DNA of 38,965 nt from Pseudomonadota bacterium (GTDB lineage Bacteria > Pseudomonadota > Gammaproteobacteria > Steroidobacterales > Woeseiaceae), in the NCBI GenBank assembly GCA_022564475.1, contig JADFLJ010000003.1:1-38965 (forward strand), given 5' to 3'. Shown one piece after another: positions 1,659-7,928 of this stretch. Within the stretch, counting starts at the first letter, position 1. Every line of letters begins with the position of its first letter. Under the pieces are notes generated by a model. It saw nothing but the letters and a program-made list of their open reading frames with translations. It did no database searches and was not told the DNA's origin. A program made the translations under genes and the position numbers.

Positions 1659-1739
1659 TGGTCCAACAAGGCAGGTTCGATGGACTATCTAGTCTCCTGA
1701 GCAGTTGTGCCGCAACAGGTCTCGGCGGATACTGTCTCC

Positions 1740-2303
1740 ATGGACGCGACCAATATGCTGACAAACCAGCTGTTAATCGCCATGCCGGGGATGGCAGACC
1801 CGAACTTCAGCAGCACCGTAACGCTGATCTGCGAGCACAACACGGATGGTGCGCTCGGCATTGTCATTAACCGCCCGCTGACACTGAAACTCGGCTCCCT
1901 GTTCGAGCAACTGAACGTTGACGGCAGCAACTCAAGCGCGGCCAACGGCCCGGTTCTGATGGGAGGACCCATAGGACCCGAGCGCGGCTTCGTACTCCAT
2001 GACTCGACACACTCTTACGAAAATTCTCTGGCCGTCTCCAACTCGATCAATCTGACGCTGTCGCGTGATGTTCTCGACGCTATGGCAGCCGGAGAGGGCC
2101 CAAAAAAATCGCTCGTCGCACTGGGATATGCAGGCTGGGAAGCAGGGCAACTTGAGGGCGAGATACTCGCCAATTCCTGGCTGAACGTGACCGCAACTCC
2201 GGACATCGTGTTCGACTTGCCATTTTCCGACCGCTGGAAAGCGGCTGCGAAAATCCTCGGCGTCGACATAAGTCGCCTTGCGCCCGATGCAGGACATGCC
2301 TGA
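1740..2303 (+). CDS. yqgE: YqgE/AlgH family protein (DUF179)
   Basis: Conserved gammaproteobacterial protein of unclear biochemical role; AlgH was reported as a regulator of alginate in Pseudomonas. Seen: the family opening NQLLIAMPGMADPNF, then CEHNTDGALGIVINRP, GGPIGPERGFVLH and LGYAGWEAGQLEGE, covering the full usual length of about 187 residues. The frame opens at GTG 1707, but family similarity only begins near NMLTNQ, so I prefer ATG 1740 with GGCGGA about 9 bp upstream; ATG 1755 is also possible. The end overlaps the start of ruvX, which suggests translational coupling. Confidence 0.93.
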   Translation: MDATNMLTNQLLIAMPGMADPNFSSTVTLICEHNTDGALGIVINRPLTLKLGSLFEQLNVDGSNSSAANGPVLMGGPIGPERGFVLHDSTHSYENSLAVSNSINLTLSRDVLDAMAAGEGPKKSLVALGYAGWEAGQLEGEILANSWLNVTATPDIVFDLPFSDRWKAAAKILGVDISRLAPDAGHA

Positions 2304-2733
2304 CTCCCAGGCTCCCGAGACGATTGTCGCATTCGATTTCGGGCTTCGCCGTATCGGCGTTGCCGTGGGCCAGAACATTACGGGCTCAGCCAGCCCGCTC
2401 GGTATCGTTGGCAACGGCGAGAACGGCGCTGATTTCGGGCGCATTGCCGAACTCATTAAAAGCTGGCGGCCCGGCCGGCTGATTGTCGGCATGCCGATGC
2501 ACGTGGATGGCAGTCCCGGTGATATCGAACCCGATATTCAGGAATTCATCGCGGAACTGACACGCTTCAATCTGCCAATTGATCGCGTCGACGAACGATA
2601 CAGCTCTCAGGAAGCCAAACAGACACTCAAGAAAGCCCGCCAGGCCGGCAACCGCGGGCGCATCAAAAAAGAACACATCGACTCCGCAGCAGCCGTCCTG
2701 ATCGCCGAGAGATATCTTCTCAAAACTCTGTAG
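2287..2733 (+). CDS. ruvX: RuvX/YqgF putative pre-16S rRNA nuclease (Holliday junction resolvase-like)
   Basis: RNase H-fold protein. In E. coli YqgF is implicated in 16S rRNA 5'-end processing, and homologues have been assayed as Holliday junction resolvases. Seen: strand-1 motif VAFDFGLRRIGVAVGQ carrying the first catalytic Asp, LIVGMPMHVDGSPG, DERYSSQEAK and a C-terminal KKEHIDSAAAVLIAERYL with the last acidic residue. Length is close to the 138-residue E. coli protein. Starts at 2287 and 2296 are both plausible; both overlap the yqgE end. pyrB starts 12 bp after the stop, with no pyrR between them as in Pseudomonas. Confidence 0.95.
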   Translation: MQDMPDSQAPETIVAFDFGLRRIGVAVGQNITGSASPLGIVGNGENGADFGRIAELIKSWRPGRLIVGMPMHVDGSPGDIEPDIQEFIAELTRFNLPIDRVDERYSSQEAKQTLKKARQAGNRGRIKKEHIDSAAAVLIAERYLLKTL

Positions 2734-2745
2734 AATGGCGCCGCG

Positions 2746-3744
2746 ATGAGCTCAAGCACCTTCAATCCGGACCTCAAGGACGATGCCGACGTTCAATTGA
2801 ACGCAGACGGTTCTCTGCGTCATCTGCTGACATTGAAGGGTCTGAGCAAGGATATCCTCATCGAACTACTCGACAGCGCGGAGGCATTCCTGAGCCCGGA
2901 AGGAGCCCTGCCTGTTCGCAGCAAGGCATTAAACGGCCGCACGATCGCCAACCTGTTTTTCGAACCCAGTACGCGCACACGTGCGTCATTTGATCTGGCC
3001 GGCAAGCGACTCGGCGCCGACGTACTCAATCTCGACGTCAACACCTCGTCTCGTAAGAAAGGCGAAAGCATCCTCGACACGATTTATACGCTCGAGGCAA
3101 TGCAGGTCGACATCATGGTTGTGCGCGACGCGGGCGCCGGCGTTCCGGCCTATATCGCTCGCAACGCCAAGGACTTCGTCAGCGTCCTGAATGCCGGCGA
3201 ATCCGATGTTTCCCATCCGACACAGGGCTTGCTGGATATTCTTACGATGCGGCAGTACCGCCAGGATTTCGAAAATATGACGGTCGCCATTGTCGGCGAC
3301 ATTCAACATTCGCGCGTTGCGCGTTCGGCTGCACACGGGTTGGAAACCTTGGGTATTGGCGAATTGCGGCTGGTGTCGCCGCCGGCAATGGCACCTGCAG
3401 CGGACGACATGCCATTCGCTAAACTGGTTGACAATCTTGACGACGGTTTGCGCGACGCGGACGTGGTCATGGCGTTGCGAATTCAGCGTGAGCGTATCGG
3501 CAATCTCGATGGCATCCCGGGCATTGATGAATACTTCGCGAATTTCGGCATCAGCCGGGAGCGCATGAAGCTCGCGAAGCCGACCGCAATCGTCATGCAC
3601 CCGGGACCCATGAATCGCGGCATCGAAATCGAAGGTATTGTTGCTGATAGTCCGCAATCGGTCATCACCAAACAGGTCACCAACGGCGTTGCAGTTCGCA
3701 TGGCCGTTCTCGAGCGAGTCATGCGCACCCTGGACGCGCGGTGA
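2746..3744 (+). CDS. pyrB: Aspartate carbamoyltransferase catalytic subunit
   Basis: Cytosolic enzyme joining carbamoyl phosphate and aspartate, the first committed step of pyrimidine synthesis. Seen: carbamoyl-phosphate loop EPSTRTR at residues 73-79, the lysine loop SSRKKGESILDT at 101-112, HPTQ at 157-160, the aspartate-domain VGDIQHSRVARS and MHPGPMNRGIEI near the C-terminus. At 332 residues with an N-terminal extension of about 20, it resembles the Pseudomonas-type enzyme (about 334), which pairs with an inactive PyrC-like partner; no such partner is present here. Its end overlaps the next gene in GTGA. There is no visible leader attenuator because the gap after ruvX is only 12 bp. Confidence 0.97.
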   Translation: MSSSTFNPDLKDDADVQLNADGSLRHLLTLKGLSKDILIELLDSAEAFLSPEGALPVRSKALNGRTIANLFFEPSTRTRASFDLAGKRLGADVLNLDVNTSSRKKGESILDTIYTLEAMQVDIMVVRDAGAGVPAYIARNAKDFVSVLNAGESDVSHPTQGLLDILTMRQYRQDFENMTVAIVGDIQHSRVARSAAHGLETLGIGELRLVSPPAMAPAADDMPFAKLVDNLDDGLRDADVVMALRIQRERIGNLDGIPGIDEYFANFGISRERMKLAKPTAIVMHPGPMNRGIEIEGIVADSPQSVITKQVTNGVAVRMAVLERVMRTLDAR

Positions 3745-4628
3745 CGTCAGCAACTCAAGAATTGGCCCGGAAAAACCGCAACAGCCTGTTCGTCGAAGAC
3801 GGCGAGATCATCAGCGTCGCGTGTTATCCCGGCGAGCAGTTTATTCAACGCATTCTCGCTCCCAAATGTGCGGTCGCGGCACGCGCGGGGAGCTTCGTCC
3901 ACATCAGCTGTGACGAGTCGCTGGCCATGCGACGACCACTGTCGATCATGCGAGTGGGCGACGACTGGATCGACGTGCTTTATAAAATTCACGGCGAAGG
4001 CCTGCGCTTGCTGGCGCAAAAGCAAATCGGCGATGTCGTCAGTGTCCTTGGCCCGATCGGCACGGCTTTCAGTACCAACCCGGATCGGCCGAATATCCTG
4101 CTGCTCGGCGGTGGCGTGGGAATTCCGCCGATGGTGTTCCTGGCAGACACGCTGCGAAAGGACCCGGCCTGGAACATCTTCGCCATTCTCGGCTCGGAAA
4201 TCCCGTTCCCGTTCGAGCTACAGAACTCCTCGATTCCGGTTGCCGGCATCGCCACTGATATTTCGAGCGCCATGCCGCTGCTGGAAGACTGGAAAATCCC
4301 ATCGCGACTGACGAGCCTGCAGGGCTACGCAGGCTGCTTCGATGGCTACGTAACCGAGCTGGCGAAGCACTGGCTCGCCAGCCTCGAGCAATCGGAACGG
4401 AACAAAGTTGCCATCTACGCCTGCGGCCCGACCCCCATGCTTAAAGCCGTCGCTGACCTCGCCGCTCGCTATGACCTCGCGTGTCAGGTGTCGCTGGAGG
4501 AATTCATGGCCTGCGCAGTCGGTGGCTGTGCCGGTTGCACGGTGCTCGTCGAAACGCCCGATGGTCAGGCGATGAAGCGTGTGTGCGTGGATGGTCCAGT
4601 GTTCGATGCCGCGAGCATCGTCTGGTAG
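3741..4628 (+). CDS. pyrK: PyrK-like dihydroorotate dehydrogenase electron-transfer subunit
   Basis: Ferredoxin-reductase-fold protein with FAD, NAD and [2Fe-2S] sites. In class 1B systems PyrK passes electrons from PyrD to NAD+. Seen: FAD motif RRPLSIM (64-70), NAD-loop GGGVGIPP (123-130), ACGPTPML (227-234), and a C-terminal cluster motif with Cys258, Cys263, Cys266 and Cys282 ending CVDGPVF. Start is GTG at 3741, overlapping pyrB by 4 bp, so the two are probably translated together. No pyrD lies nearby. Most gammaproteobacteria use quinone-linked PyrD, so this is unusual. Another ferredoxin-reductase-type role cannot be excluded. It meets the pilT-like gene tail to tail with 4 bp between. 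Confidence 0.85.
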   Translation: MTSATQELARKNRNSLFVEDGEIISVACYPGEQFIQRILAPKCAVAARAGSFVHISCDESLAMRRPLSIMRVGDDWIDVLYKIHGEGLRLLAQKQIGDVVSVLGPIGTAFSTNPDRPNILLLGGGVGIPPMVFLADTLRKDPAWNIFAILGSEIPFPFELQNSSIPVAGIATDISSAMPLLEDWKIPSRLTSLQGYAGCFDGYVTELAKHWLASLEQSERNKVAIYACGPTPMLKAVADLAARYDLACQVSLEEFMACAVGGCAGCTVLVETPDGQAMKRVCVDGPVFDAASIVW

Positions 4629-4632
4629 AACG

Positions 4633-5691
4633 CTAGCCGCCGAAATTGACCTTGGCTTCGAGATTTGAGCGCGAGTCGGCATGCGACATGGCTTCATCCA
4701 GCGTAATCGTGCCAGCCTTGTAAAGATTCAGCAACGCGTCATCGAAGTTCTGCATGCCCTGCTCGCCCGATTCCTTGTGCGCTTCCTTCACACCCGAAAT
4801 ATCGCCCTTGAGGATAAGATCCTTGATGTGCGGCGTATTCAGCAGCAGCTCGACAGCTGCAACTCGTTTGCCGTTGCGAGCACGAACAAGACGTTGTGAC
4901 AGAATCGCTCGCAGGTAGTGCGCGAGATCCATGAACACTTGTGCGTGTTGGTCGTGGGGAAACAGATTGATGATTCGATCCAGCGTCTCAGCCGCGTTGT
5001 TCGAGTGCACCGTTGCGAGTACGAGGTGACCCGTACCGGCCATGTTCAGCGCCGATTGCATCGATTCGCGATCACGAATCTCGCCAATTAGAATTACGTC
5101 AGGTGCCGCGCGCACAGCACTCTTCAGGGCAGCCTCGTAAGACTTTGTATCGATGCCGATTTCACGCTGGTTGATGATTGACTGCTTGTTCGGATGCAGA
5201 AATTCGATCGGGTCTTCGATCGTAATGATGTGCGATGACGTTTTTTCATTTCGATAGTTAACCATCGCCGCGAGAGTCGTCGACTTGCCCGCGCCGCTTG
5301 CGCCGACCATCAATATCAATCCACGGCGCAGCATGACCAGATCCTTGAGCTGCTCGGGCATGCCGAGGTCGTCAAGGTTGGGTAATTCGCTGGTGATGTA
5401 ACGCAAGACCATCGCGACATTGCCGCGTTGATGAAATACGTTGACGCGAAATCGTCCAAGTCCAGGCTCGGAAATCGCGAAATCGATTTCGAGTTCCCGT
5501 GTAAATTCCTCAAGCTGATCGTCGGTCATAAGCTCAATGGCCGCCTGCTTGACCATTTTCGGCGTCATTTCAAGCTTGTTGACTGGCATGATCTTGCCTT
5601 CGATCTTGATCTTGGCCGGGGCGAACGGCGCAAAGAATAAATCCGATGCGTTTTTCTCGACCATTAACTTGAATAGCGGCTTGACGTTCAT
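4633..5691 (-). CDS. PilT/PilU-family pilus ATPase, third paralogue
   Basis: Cytoplasmic hexameric secretion ATPase of the Type IV pilus retraction family. Seen: PAS-like N-terminal domain, arginine-rich GLGRFRVNVFHQRG, Walker A GASGAGKST (130-138), Asp box ITIEDPIEF, Walker B DVILIGEIRDRE and His box ending GHLVLATVHS. It differs from its two neighbours: Walker A has Ala instead of the usual GPTGSGKS form, and AETGH is AGTGH. It looks more like PilU than PilT in its N-terminal part. It lies 27 bp downstream of pilU on the same strand and is probably co-transcribed. Whether it retracts pili, helps PilT, or serves another pilus is not visible. No pilus structural gene is in the window. Confidence 0.92.
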   Translation of the reverse strand: MNVKPLFKLMVEKNASDLFFAPFAPAKIKIEGKIMPVNKLEMTPKMVKQAAIELMTDDQLEEFTRELEIDFAISEPGLGRFRVNVFHQRGNVAMVLRYITSELPNLDDLGMPEQLKDLVMLRRGLILMVGASGAGKSTTLAAMVNYRNEKTSSHIITIEDPIEFLHPNKQSIINQREIGIDTKSYEAALKSAVRAAPDVILIGEIRDRESMQSALNMAGTGHLVLATVHSNNAAETLDRIINLFPHDQHAQVFMDLAHYLRAILSQRLVRARNGKRVAAVELLLNTPHIKDLILKGDISGVKEAHKESGEQGMQNFDDALLNLYKAGTITLDEAMSHADSRSNLEAKVNFGG

Positions 5692-5718: not shown

Positions 5719-6876
5719 TCAGAAAGTCTGCGCCGTATCCTCTTCCACGATTTTGAGTGTCTCTGACTGCTGATCTGCTATCGCAGAGTCGCGCTTGCTT
5801 TCCAGCTTGACCCGCAATCTGAGCTCGTTTTTCGAATCCGAGTTACGCATCGCTTCTTCATAGGAGATCGTGGAGTCCTCATAAAGCTCGAACAGCGCCT
5901 GATCGAAGGTCTGCATCCCGAGACGCGTCGACTTGGCCATGATCTCCTTGATCTGCCCAACCGCACCTTTGAAGATCAGGTCCGCAATAAGCGGTGTATT
6001 CAGCAAAATCTCCATCGCGGCGACACGTCCGATGCCACCTTCGCGTGGGATCAGGCGTTGGGACACAATGGCTTTCGCGTTCAATGACAAGTCCATGAGC
6101 AACTGCTGACGTCGCTCCTCAGGGAAAAAGTTGATGATGCGATCAAGCGCCTGATTGGCGCTGTTGGCATGCAGTGTCGCGAGACAAAGGTGACCGGTTT
6201 CGGCGAATTGAATGCCGTATTCCATGGTTTCACGGTCGCGAATTTCGCCGATCAGAATTACGTCGGGCGCTTGTCGCAGCGTGTTCTTGAGCGCCGCATG
6301 CCATGTTTCCGTATCGACGCCGACTTCGCGCTGAGTAATGACGCAGCCCTTATGCGGATGAACAAATTCGATCGGGTCCTCGATCGAAATAATGTGGCCG
6401 CGAGAATTTTCATTGCGATGGCCGATCATCGCTGCAAGCGTGGTCGACTTACCGGAGCCTGTACCGCCCACCACGATAACGAGGCCACGCTTGTTCATCA
6501 CGATATCTTTCAGAATTGGCGGCAGGTCGAGATCTTCCAGCCTCGGAATCTCGGTTGAAATCGTACGCAAAACGGCGCCGACATTGCCCTGCTGGATAAA
6601 CGCGCTTACGCGAAAACGACCAATACCCTGCGGGGCAATCGCAAAGTTACATTCTTTCGTCGCATCGAACTCCTTTATCTGCTTGTCGTTCATGATGGCC
6701 CGCACCATGATCGCAGCCTGGTCTGACGACAGCGGCGTATCGGTTGCTTTGTGAATAGTGCCGTCAACCTTGATCGCCGGTGGAAAGCCACAGGTGAGAA
6801 ACAGATCAGATCCGTTGCGCTCAACCATCTTCCGTAGCAGGTTCTGTGTCAGTCGTACGGCTTGCTCACGCTCCAT
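5719..6876 (-). CDS. pilU: Twitching motility ATPase PilU
   Basis: PilT-dependent accessory retraction ATPase of Type IV pili. Seen: ERNGSDLFLTCGFPPAIKVDG at the N-terminus, ECNFAI followed by GIGRFRVSAF, Walker A GGTGSGKST (137-145), IISIEDPIEFVH, Walker B DVILIGEIRDRE, AETGHLCLATLHAN and the C-terminal GMQTFDQALFELY. The match to P. aeruginosa PilU (about 382 residues) is close by eye over the whole length. The last 30 residues are a charged, Lys/Glu/Gln-rich tail. Only 11 bp separate it from pilT upstream, and the third paralogue follows 27 bp downstream, so a three-gene operon is likely. Confidence 0.95.
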   Translation of the reverse strand: MEREQAVRLTQNLLRKMVERNGSDLFLTCGFPPAIKVDGTIHKATDTPLSSDQAAIMVRAIMNDKQIKEFDATKECNFAIAPQGIGRFRVSAFIQQGNVGAVLRTISTEIPRLEDLDLPPILKDIVMNKRGLVIVVGGTGSGKSTTLAAMIGHRNENSRGHIISIEDPIEFVHPHKGCVITQREVGVDTETWHAALKNTLRQAPDVILIGEIRDRETMEYGIQFAETGHLCLATLHANSANQALDRIINFFPEERRQQLLMDLSLNAKAIVSQRLIPREGGIGRVAAMEILLNTPLIADLIFKGAVGQIKEIMAKSTRLGMQTFDQALFELYEDSTISYEEAMRNSDSKNELRLRVKLESKRDSAIADQQSETLKIVEEDTAQTF

Positions 6877-6887
6877 CGTTACAGCTC

Positions 6888-7928
6888 CTAGAAATTCTCT
6901 TTGTTAACGGCACGGAATCGGGCTTCTTCCTTGTTGATCATGCCCTTCGCCATCAGCTCAGCGAGATTTTGATCGAGTGTTTGCATGCCTGACGCGTGCC
7001 CGGTCTGAATCGACGAATACATCTGAGCGATCTTGCCTTCACGGATGAGGTTTCGAATAGCGGGCGTACCCACCATGATTTCATGTGCGGCGATGCGGCC
7101 ACCGCCTATCTTTTTCAACAGCGTTTGCGAAATAACAGCTCGCAATGACTCTGACAACATCGCCCGAACCATTTCTTTTTCCGCGGCAGGGAAAACATCG
7201 ACAATACGATCGACGGTTTTCGCCGCAGAACTTGTATGCAAGGTGCCGAAAACAAGGTGACCTGTTTCAGCAGCCGTCAACGCCAGTCGAATGGTTTCGA
7301 GATCACGCAACTCGCCGATGAGGATGACATCGGGATCTTCACGCAGCGCCGATCGCAGCGCCTCGTTGAATCCCAGCGTGTCACGATGCACTTCTCGCTG
7401 GTTGATCAGCGATTTCTTGCATTCATGCACGAATTCGATCGGATCTTCGATCGTGAGAATATGATCGGGTTTGTTTTCATTGATGTAGTCAACCATCGCC
7501 GCCAGCGTGGTCGACTTGCCCGAACCCGTCGGCCCCGTGACCAGGATCATGCCGCGCGGTTGCATGCACATGTCTTTGAAAATAGCGGGCGCGCCCAAAT
7601 CGTCGAGAGACAGTATTTCGGATGGAATGATCCGGAACACAGCGGCCGAACCGCGATTCTGGTTGAAGGCATTTACACGAAACCGCGCCAGCTTCGGAAT
7701 CTCGAACGAGAAATCAGTCTCGAGAAATTCTTCATAGTCCTTACGCTGCTTGTCATTCATGATGTCGTACACCATGCTATTGACGTCCTTATGGGTCAGC
7801 GCCGGCATATTGATTCGCTTGATGTCACCATCAACGCGAATCATAGGCGGCACCCCACCGGATAAGTGCAGGTCGGAGGCGTTGTTCTTTACCGTGAACG
7901 ATAATAGCTGTGCAACGTCGACGGCCAT
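6888..7928 (-). CDS. pilT: Type IV pilus retraction ATPase PilT
   Basis: Hexameric ATPase that drives pilus retraction and twitching. Seen: NASDLHLSGGVPPMIRVDGD, Walker A GPTGSGKST (132-140), Asp box LTIEDPIEF with the catalytic Glu, Walker B DPDVILIGELRD, His box AETGHLVFGTLHT and the PilT-specific C-terminal AIRNLIREGK (290-299). Length 346 is typical. A good ribosome site GAGGG lies 8 bp before ATG 7928. It is divergent from yggS across an 86-bp gap, the same arrangement as in Pseudomonas. A TATACT hexamer on the minus strand in that gap could be its -10 box, but no convincing -35 is visible. Confidence 0.97.
   Translation of the reverse strand: MAVDVAQLLSFTVKNNASDLHLSGGVPPMIRVDGDIKRINMPALTHKDVNSMVYDIMNDKQRKDYEEFLETDFSFEIPKLARFRVNAFNQNRGSAAVFRIIPSEILSLDDLGAPAIFKDMCMQPRGMILVTGPTGSGKSTTLAAMVDYINENKPDHILTIEDPIEFVHECKKSLINQREVHRDTLGFNEALRSALREDPDVILIGELRDLETIRLALTAAETGHLVFGTLHTSSAAKTVDRIVDVFPAAEKEMVRAMLSESLRAVISQTLLKKIGGGRIAAHEIMVGTPAIRNLIREGKIAQMYSSIQTGHASGMQTLDQNLAELMAKGMINKEEARFRAVNKENF

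Follow-up and report, generated by a model that had tools for sequence, protein, structure and literature searches.

A pyrB-pyrK gene pair in a gammaproteobacterial genome points to a class 1B dihydroorotate dehydrogenase with unlinked subunit genes

In the stretch of DNA analysed here, the aspartate carbamoyltransferase (ATCase) gene pyrB overlaps by 4 nucleotides (nt) a gene for a PyrK-type protein. The stretch, called the window throughout, spans 38,965 nt (positions 1 to 38,965 of contig JADFLJ010000003.1) of the Pseudomonadota bacterium assembly GCA_022564475.1, order Steroidobacterales. We consider it very likely, with a probability of roughly 0.86, that the downstream gene encodes the PyrK electron-transfer subunit of a class 1B dihydroorotate dehydrogenase, the catalytic PyrD of type B being encoded at an unlinked place. 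PyrK would form a complex with this PyrD, and electrons from dihydroorotate would travel through the flavin mononucleotide (FMN) of PyrD and the [2Fe-2S] cluster and flavin adenine dinucleotide (FAD) of PyrK to nicotinamide adenine dinucleotide (NAD+), a route that would make pyrimidine synthesis independent of quinones. We infer NAD+ as the acceptor because it is the one known for class 1B enzymes (PMC8097209); beyond this implication of class 1B, the data speak neither for nor against the other electron acceptor considered in a preliminary description of this DNA.

Positions 2746-3744, plus strand: pyrB, ATCase catalytic chain, 332 amino acids (aa), ATG start, from the open reading frame (ORF) and a hidden Markov model (HMM) match; N-terminal extension of ~24 residues
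Positions 3741-4628, plus strand: pyrK, PyrK-type FAD/[2Fe-2S] electron-transfer subunit, 295 aa, GTG start, from the ORF, Pfam, motifs and predicted fold
Positions 3741-3744, plus strand: GTGA, overlap of the pyrB stop with the pyrK start; the 4-nt overlap suggests translational coupling

The window PyrB scores as an ATCase (NF002032, 345.6 bits against a cut-off of 263), and its HMM match begins at residue 25, which gives an N-terminal extension and agrees with the long, Pseudomonas-type PyrB of the preliminary description. That description had also reported a 4-bp overlap with a gene for a PyrK-like [2Fe-2S] flavoprotein and the lack of a pyrD at the locus, and both points stand: the two ORFs share GTGA, the second product holds the DHODB_Fe-S_bind domain, and PF01180 matches only twice in the genome, on contigs C29 and C38, whereas the window is contig C2. 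None of the genome's 18 amidohydrolase (PF01979) matches lies on the window contig.

We regard the pairing as more than chance because PyrK occurs in 58 of the 60 genomes of the order, its own genome included, because an intact pyrB lies directly upstream of pyrK in 42 of 50 loci examined in the order, and because the spacing is tight. Among 97 pyrB-pyrK pairs without pyrC', a dihydroorotase-like gene discussed below, the spacing was 15 nt or less in 93 and a 4-nt overlap (-4) in 71; some of these loci are one genome present in two collections, and start codons were picked for nearness to the start used in the window, a choice that favours short or overlapping values. The two genes are probably transcribed together, with translation of pyrK coupled to that of pyrB.

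An unlinked class 1B PyrD accompanies PyrK

The genome (2.44 Mb, 83% complete) holds a single PyrK match and a class 1B PyrD at C29:8005-8910. This PyrD, a protein of 315 aa, scores 360.2 bits with NF005574 (PRK07259; cut-off 269), carries the Cys in NISCPNVKEGG and matches its HMM from residue 12, without the long N-terminal extension, as expected of class 1B. No class 2 PyrD was found in the genome with PF01180 or with TIGR01036 at an E-value of 1e-50. The preliminary suggestion of a class 1B PyrD encoded elsewhere is thus borne out by the genome search, which did not return the opposite picture of a quinone-type PyrD alone. The C38 match was rejected as a second PyrD, as it is PreA (NF006183, 692 bits, cut-off 335); PreA follows a PreT-like oxidoreductase there (L002, assigned by eye), the pair for reductive pyrimidine degradation.

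Across the order, an NISCPN-type PyrD was seen in 36 motif-checked genomes (the own genome and 35 others), the check covering 36 of the 54 genomes with a strong PF01180 match outside family f8. The two genomes of the order that lack PyrK, G043 and G056 of one family, carry a PyrD with Ser, NISSPN replacing NISCPN, and NCBIfam places that of G056 in class 2 (NF003645, 425 bits, cut-off 366).

The GTDB class Gammaproteobacteria takes in the Burkholderiales as well. Among 229 sampled genomes of this class, with a score of at least 230 bits against our profile A1 required for PyrK, PyrK occurred together with class 1B PyrD in 95 genomes and alone in 2; class 1B alone was found in 9, both PyrD classes in one (G116), class 2 alone in 96 and none of them in 26. 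Class 1B PyrD is thus present in 95 of the 97 PyrK genomes, and PyrK together with class 2 PyrD occurs in none of the 229. It is for this reason that PyrK most likely passes electrons from the unlinked PyrD to NAD+, and we take the co-occurrence as the best evidence that the two would work together. The two genes share a contig in 13 of the 95 genomes, at distances of 13.7 to 659 kb. Class totals of 105 (1B) and 97 (class 2) among the 229 genomes do not agree, for this sample, with the earlier statement that Gammaproteobacteria mostly use quinone-linked PyrD.

Several observations weigh against the pairing of PyrK with an unlinked PyrD. The missing class 2 PyrD is no proof in a genome that is 83% complete. 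Four of the 60 genomes of the order (G011, G017, G023 and G026) have PyrK and only a PF01180 match at the level of PreA, and one of them, G023, is 98% complete; in the class, 2 of the 97 PyrK genomes (G217 and G244) have no 1B match. Conversely, G097, G105, G148 and G245 have a 1B PyrD and no PyrK match at an E-value of 0.001 (G148 and G245 being 76% and 86% complete), and G111, G250 and G116, the last with class 2 as well, have a 1B PyrD and only a cofactor-less relative of PyrK. Because these seven genomes hold a 1B PyrD without true PyrK, the 1B enzyme may be able to function in its absence. Also among the nine genomes in the 1B-alone group are G072, whose divergent PyrK reaches 154 bits, G125, with PyrK pieces at contig ends, and G222, which is 87% complete. 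The literature searched yielded no biochemistry for this group.

The window protein is of the PyrK type

The downstream protein matches Pfam DHODB_Fe-S_bind with 52 bits (cut-off 23.9), and its three best NCBIfam models are all PyrK models. It carries three motifs, the first of which we take to bind FAD and the second, presumably, the nucleotide in the NAD domain.

Positions 3930-3947, plus strand: RRPLSI, residues 64-69, shared with Lactococcus lactis PyrK (RRPISI), unlike Nfn (GERIPLT)
Positions 4107-4130, plus strand: GGGVGIPP, residues 123-130, nucleotide-binding motif of the NAD domain
Positions 4512-4586, plus strand: CX4CX2CX15C, Cys 258, 263, 266 and 282, [2Fe-2S] site in the DHODB_Fe-S_bind domain

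Across 26 proteins of the order, key residues of the FAD, NAD and Cys motifs vary little or not at all, and an alignment of 47 proteins, most of them from a broader range of genomes (A3), shows no variation at the four Cys. The predicted structure (mean predicted local distance difference test score, pLDDT, 89.5; predicted template modelling score 0.88) superposes on L. lactis PyrK with Z 28.5 over 247 residues at a root-mean-square deviation of 2.2.

A different reading of these data is that the protein is an Nfn-type subunit (NfnA/SudB, of the NADH-dependent ferredoxin:NADP oxidoreductase) or another ferredoxin/NAD(P) reductase subunit that serves another partner and stands beside pyrB by accident. 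The fold speaks for it, since the score for Pyrococcus Nfn (Z 28.1) is practically as high as that for PyrK and the top Foldseek rank of the window model is an Nfn chain, and so do the PDB-profile scores, in which Nfn comes close to PyrK (111 and 102 bits). The signature residues speak otherwise. In the PDB alignments the window protein has RRPLSI and EEFMACAVGGCAGC, resembling L. lactis PyrK (RRPISI and ESRMACGIGACYAC) and differing from Nfn (GERIPLT and NPIMVDGTGMCGAC); it carries RRPxS and GGGxGxPP as PyrK does and lacks the Nfn/SudB signatures GERIPLT and DGTGMCG(A/G)C. Four genomes from the window's genus (L389-L392) also encode a distinct Nfn-type protein bearing GERIPLTI and DGTGMCGGC, and the exclusion of PyrK from class 2 genomes (0 of 97) is not what one would expect of Nfn. 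In a tree of 25 rows the Nfn proteins form a clade of their own (support 100/99) with the window group outside. Membership in Nfn was rejected on the signature residues and the separate clade, and we hold the whole reading to be very improbable.

Two results leave the assignment to PyrK itself less firm. L. lactis PyrK is placed at 75/37 only, so that of the ferredoxin reductase tree proposed earlier the separation from Nfn came out clearly and the joining with PyrK did not; the tree is limited to partial PDB chains, with a very long Fpr outgroup branch and a bootstrap that has not settled. The protein also stays under every curated NCBIfam PyrK cut-off (128.6 of 314, 117.4 of 219, 108.1 of 270 and 82.8 of 224 bits), and because of this we call it PyrK-type and do not file it under those models.

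The gene pair lacks a pyrC' found in related loci

We found that 1282-1385 nt separate pyrB from PyrK in 70 of 77 measurable genomes, compared with 30 nt between HMM edges in the window. The 77 are those measured among 105 genomes in which PyrK matched strongly or weakly, with pyrB places taken from the matches listed, and four of them hold a cofactor-less protein. The longer distance is filled by a gene, as in Ectothiorhodospira haloalkaliphila (L280), Sedimenticola selenatireducens (L287) and Candidatus Thiodiazotropha (L271), where the order is algH-ruvX-pyrR-pyrB-pyrC'-pyrK. Among 130 loci, the full AlgH-RuvX-PyrR-PyrB-PyrC'-PyrK series was present in 25, of which at least 5 end in a cofactor-less gene (L292-L295, L302), and AlgH-RuvX-PyrB-PyrK in 47; the rest are cut by their own ends or miss a part.

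The gene between pyrB and pyrK encodes a relative of dihydroorotase. Dihydroorotases as a rule carry HxH at the metal site. This motif was seen in 0 of 53 frames, whose typical sequence is DLxARLREPG; the site was located in 53 of the 58 middle-gene frames and not in the other 5. In this the middle gene is like the inactive PyrC' of Pseudomonas (PMC2770081, PMC7053772).

A class A2 ATCase has pyrC' next to pyrB; in the window no pyrC' stands there, the two ORFs overlap by 4 nt, and the 97 close pyrB-pyrK pairs leave no room for one. Because the common locus is ruvX-pyrR-pyrB-pyrC'-pyrK, the pair in the window's order would have arisen from this older arrangement by losing pyrR and the inactive pyrC', and the comparison across relatives that the preliminary description had proposed does account for the window's gene order. 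Its phrase "in place of pyrC" does not hold as worded: the gene missing between pyrB and pyrK is the inactive pyrC', and a stand-alone dihydroorotase-level protein is encoded on contig C60 (NF006688, 670.7 bits, cut-off 535). PyrK as a replacement of the catalytic PyrC was rejected on these two grounds. The metal site of the C60 protein (L012) reads DDQVHFREPG, without the full HxH, and an ORF resembling a GltD-like FAD/NAD(P) oxidoreductase (by eye) lies nearby on the same strand.

One could also suppose that in the window's order PyrK took over the job of pyrC' and holds PyrB active. The PyrB of Pseudomonas aeruginosa is monomeric and inactive without its pseudo-dihydroorotase (PMC7053772), and the window pyrK occupies the position of pyrC' with its 4-nt overlap. 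On the other side, pyrK stays without an intact pyrB in 8 of the 50 loci examined, the segment suspected of making the contact is eroded in the window protein (see below), and family f8 is the opposite case, with ruvX-pyrB kept and neither pyrC' nor pyrK (L299, L300), which argues that PyrK is dispensable to PyrB in this order. We consider the takeover very unlikely; PyrK as an indispensable partner of PyrB was rejected on the f8 loci.

pyrB is lost at L018, L026, L217 and L239, with just a few codons left before pyrK at L026 and L239; ~190 nt of the pyrB 5' end remain at L018, and the gap has the same length at L217. No ATCase over the cut-off was found elsewhere in G029 and G036, which are 84% and 83% complete.

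Cofactor-less relatives keep a segment of PyrK

Weak PyrK matches in class 2 genomes led to proteins, encoded behind pyrB-pyrC', that lack RRPLS, GGGVGIPP and the Cys tail. The first seven are 149-256 aa long. With a profile built from them (A2) and searched in the 229 genomes, we found 18 that hold a relative of PyrK in which the FAD and Fe-S sites are absent and the NAD motif is not intact; a G108 match (27.5 bits, within a 1169-aa frame) was left out of this count, and the protein of G072 was classed with the full-length PyrK as a divergent case.

Loci of the cofactor-less genes: L292, L293, L294, L295, L301, L302, L309, L349-L357, L296, L297
Genomes listed for these loci: G133, G261, G110, G186, G250, G116, G111, G135, G262, G130, G260, G147, G204, G280, G173, G278, G079, G227

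Fourteen of the 18 belong to the 96 genomes with class 2 alone; the others are G116 with both classes, G111 and G250 with 1B and no true PyrK, and G173 with neither. The gene lies directly behind pyrC' in 13 (G110, G111, G116, G130, G133, G135, G147, G204, G250, G260, G261, G262 and G280) and ~1 kb further on from it in G186, and no pyrC' was seen before it in G079, G227, G278 and G173. A partial NAD motif, GEGMGIPS, is left in G079 and G227. Three pairs gave nonsynonymous over synonymous substitution rates (dN/dS) of 0.20/1.10, 0.29/2.47 and 0.08/0.36 by NG86, that is, ratios of 0.18, 0.12 and 0.21, and ratios of 0.15, 0.17 and 0.31 by YN00; values of dS above 1 are near saturation, which makes the ratios rough, and a fourth pair (G250/G111) gave no value. 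All three pairs suggest purifying selection. Because none of five scanned proteins reached a Pfam cut-off, such genes are probably annotated as hypothetical.

These relatives keep a stretch resembling FPF..xPSR..VxGxP..xIAxxPLLEDWxIPxR, at residues 155-189 of the window protein, where its core has degenerated.

Positions 4215-4295, plus strand: segment 159-185 (ELQNSSIPVAGIATDISSAMPLLEDWK), counterpart of the stretch kept by the cofactor-less relatives; eroded in the window protein, as in most PyrK that have no pyrC' next to them

With sequence weighting, residues 161-185 differ by 1.02 bits between 44 PyrK with and 82 without pyrC', compared with a mean of 0.31 (standard deviation 0.21) over all 25-residue windows; unweighted, residues 151-188 differ by 0.62 bits and the other named regions by 0.07 to 0.30. 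The segment motif was found in 43 of 48 PyrK with pyrC' and in 10 of 107 without (5 could not be called, and one genome can count twice). In the predicted structure of the window protein the segment is mostly loop with block pLDDT of 93-98, and a stretch between residues 153 and 225 has no match in L. lactis PyrK. This pattern suggests that PyrK may dock on PyrC' or PyrB through the segment.

We think it possible, with the odds leaning against it, that PyrK is also, or was ancestrally, a structural subunit of the PyrB-PyrC' ATCase complex, held by residues ~159-185. Such a role is compatible with PyrK as a subunit of dihydroorotate dehydrogenase and would extend it: it would account for pyrK living in the ATCase locus, where the genomes measured have it next to pyrB-pyrC' and away from pyrD, and for a PyrK that is kept, its cofactors lost, after a switch to class 2. 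The 18 cofactor-less relatives, their place behind pyrC' in 13 genomes, their low dN/dS and the fact that the stretch they preserve is the one differing most between PyrK with and without pyrC' all argue in this direction. However, a single order supplies most of the group without pyrC', so that few independent events underlie the contrast; the motif is kept by 10 proteins without pyrC' and missing in 5 with it; five of the 18 cofactor-less genes (those of G186, G079, G227, G278 and G173) are not directly behind pyrC'; and 29 other class 2 loci (L360-L388), chosen since A2 found nothing there, hold no such protein. About as tentatively, gammaproteobacterial PyrK could be a third subunit of the PyrB-PyrC' complex that physically ties steps two and four of pyrimidine synthesis and survives the switch to quinone-linked PyrD as a pseudoenzyme, as PyrC' would have done earlier, the window's order, without PyrC', representing a relaxed form.

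Relation to known systems

Compared with the class 1B PyrDB-PyrK of L. lactis (PDB 1EP3/5KSW), the window protein shares the FAD and NAD motifs, the four-Cys [2Fe-2S] tail and the fold, and the PyrD of its genome shares the Cys in NISCPNVKEGG and exceeds the NF005574 cut-off. It differs in that pyrK and pyrD are unlinked, with pyrK in the ATCase locus, and that PyrK is longer (295 and 262 aa) and below the NCBIfam PyrK cut-offs. The Pseudomonas-type class A2 ATCase, PyrB with inactive PyrC' (PMC7053772, PMC2770081), shares the order algH-ruvX-(pyrR)-pyrB with relatives of the window and the N-terminally extended PyrB with the window itself, whereas the window has neither pyrC' nor pyrR between ruvX and pyrK and has pyrK directly behind pyrB. 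NfnA/SudB (PDB 4YLF, 5JCA) resembles the window protein in fold and domain order and differs in the FAD and Fe-S signature residues, in its separate clade and in having its own genes in the same genus.

A 2009 paper assigns class 1B PyrD to the Archaea and Firmicutes, with class 2 distributed over the Gram-negatives and the Actinobacteria (PMC3224940). By contrast, 105 of 229 sampled Gammaproteobacteria carry 1B, nearly always with PyrK and, save G116, without class 2. Class 2 PyrD is described as tying pyrimidine synthesis indirectly to oxygen in Pseudomonas putida (PMC6805499), a species whose engineering is the subject of PMC6805499 (with L. lactis pyrK-pyrDB) and apparently of PMC7789669; NAD-linked dihydroorotate oxidation would free the pathway from respiration. 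Among the best literature matches listed, judged by titles and abstract starts, we found none that deals with PyrK or 1B PyrD native to Gammaproteobacteria, or with a PyrK encoded in an ATCase operon, which does not establish absence from print. We see in the arrangement a variant of a known enzyme, with the possible structural role of PyrK as the part worth an experiment. In this respect the side finding of cofactor-less relatives may matter more than the gene pair itself, as they offer, beside the known PyrC', a directly testable example in which subunits of an enzyme would be retained for assembly once catalysis is lost.

Neighbouring genes

The genes around the pair mark the same locus in relatives on both sides.

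Positions 1707-2303, plus strand: algH (yqgE), conserved upstream neighbour
Positions 2278-2733, plus strand: ruvX (yqgF), conserved upstream neighbour
Positions 4633-5691, minus strand: PilT/PilU-type ATPase gene, convergent with pyrK and a marker of this locus in relatives (named by eye, without a family search)

Pseudomonas has two PilT/PilU-type genes at the corresponding place. In the window we counted, by eye, three such ATPase genes in tandem on the minus strand between 4633 and 7928, at 4633-5691, 5719-6876 and 6888-7928.

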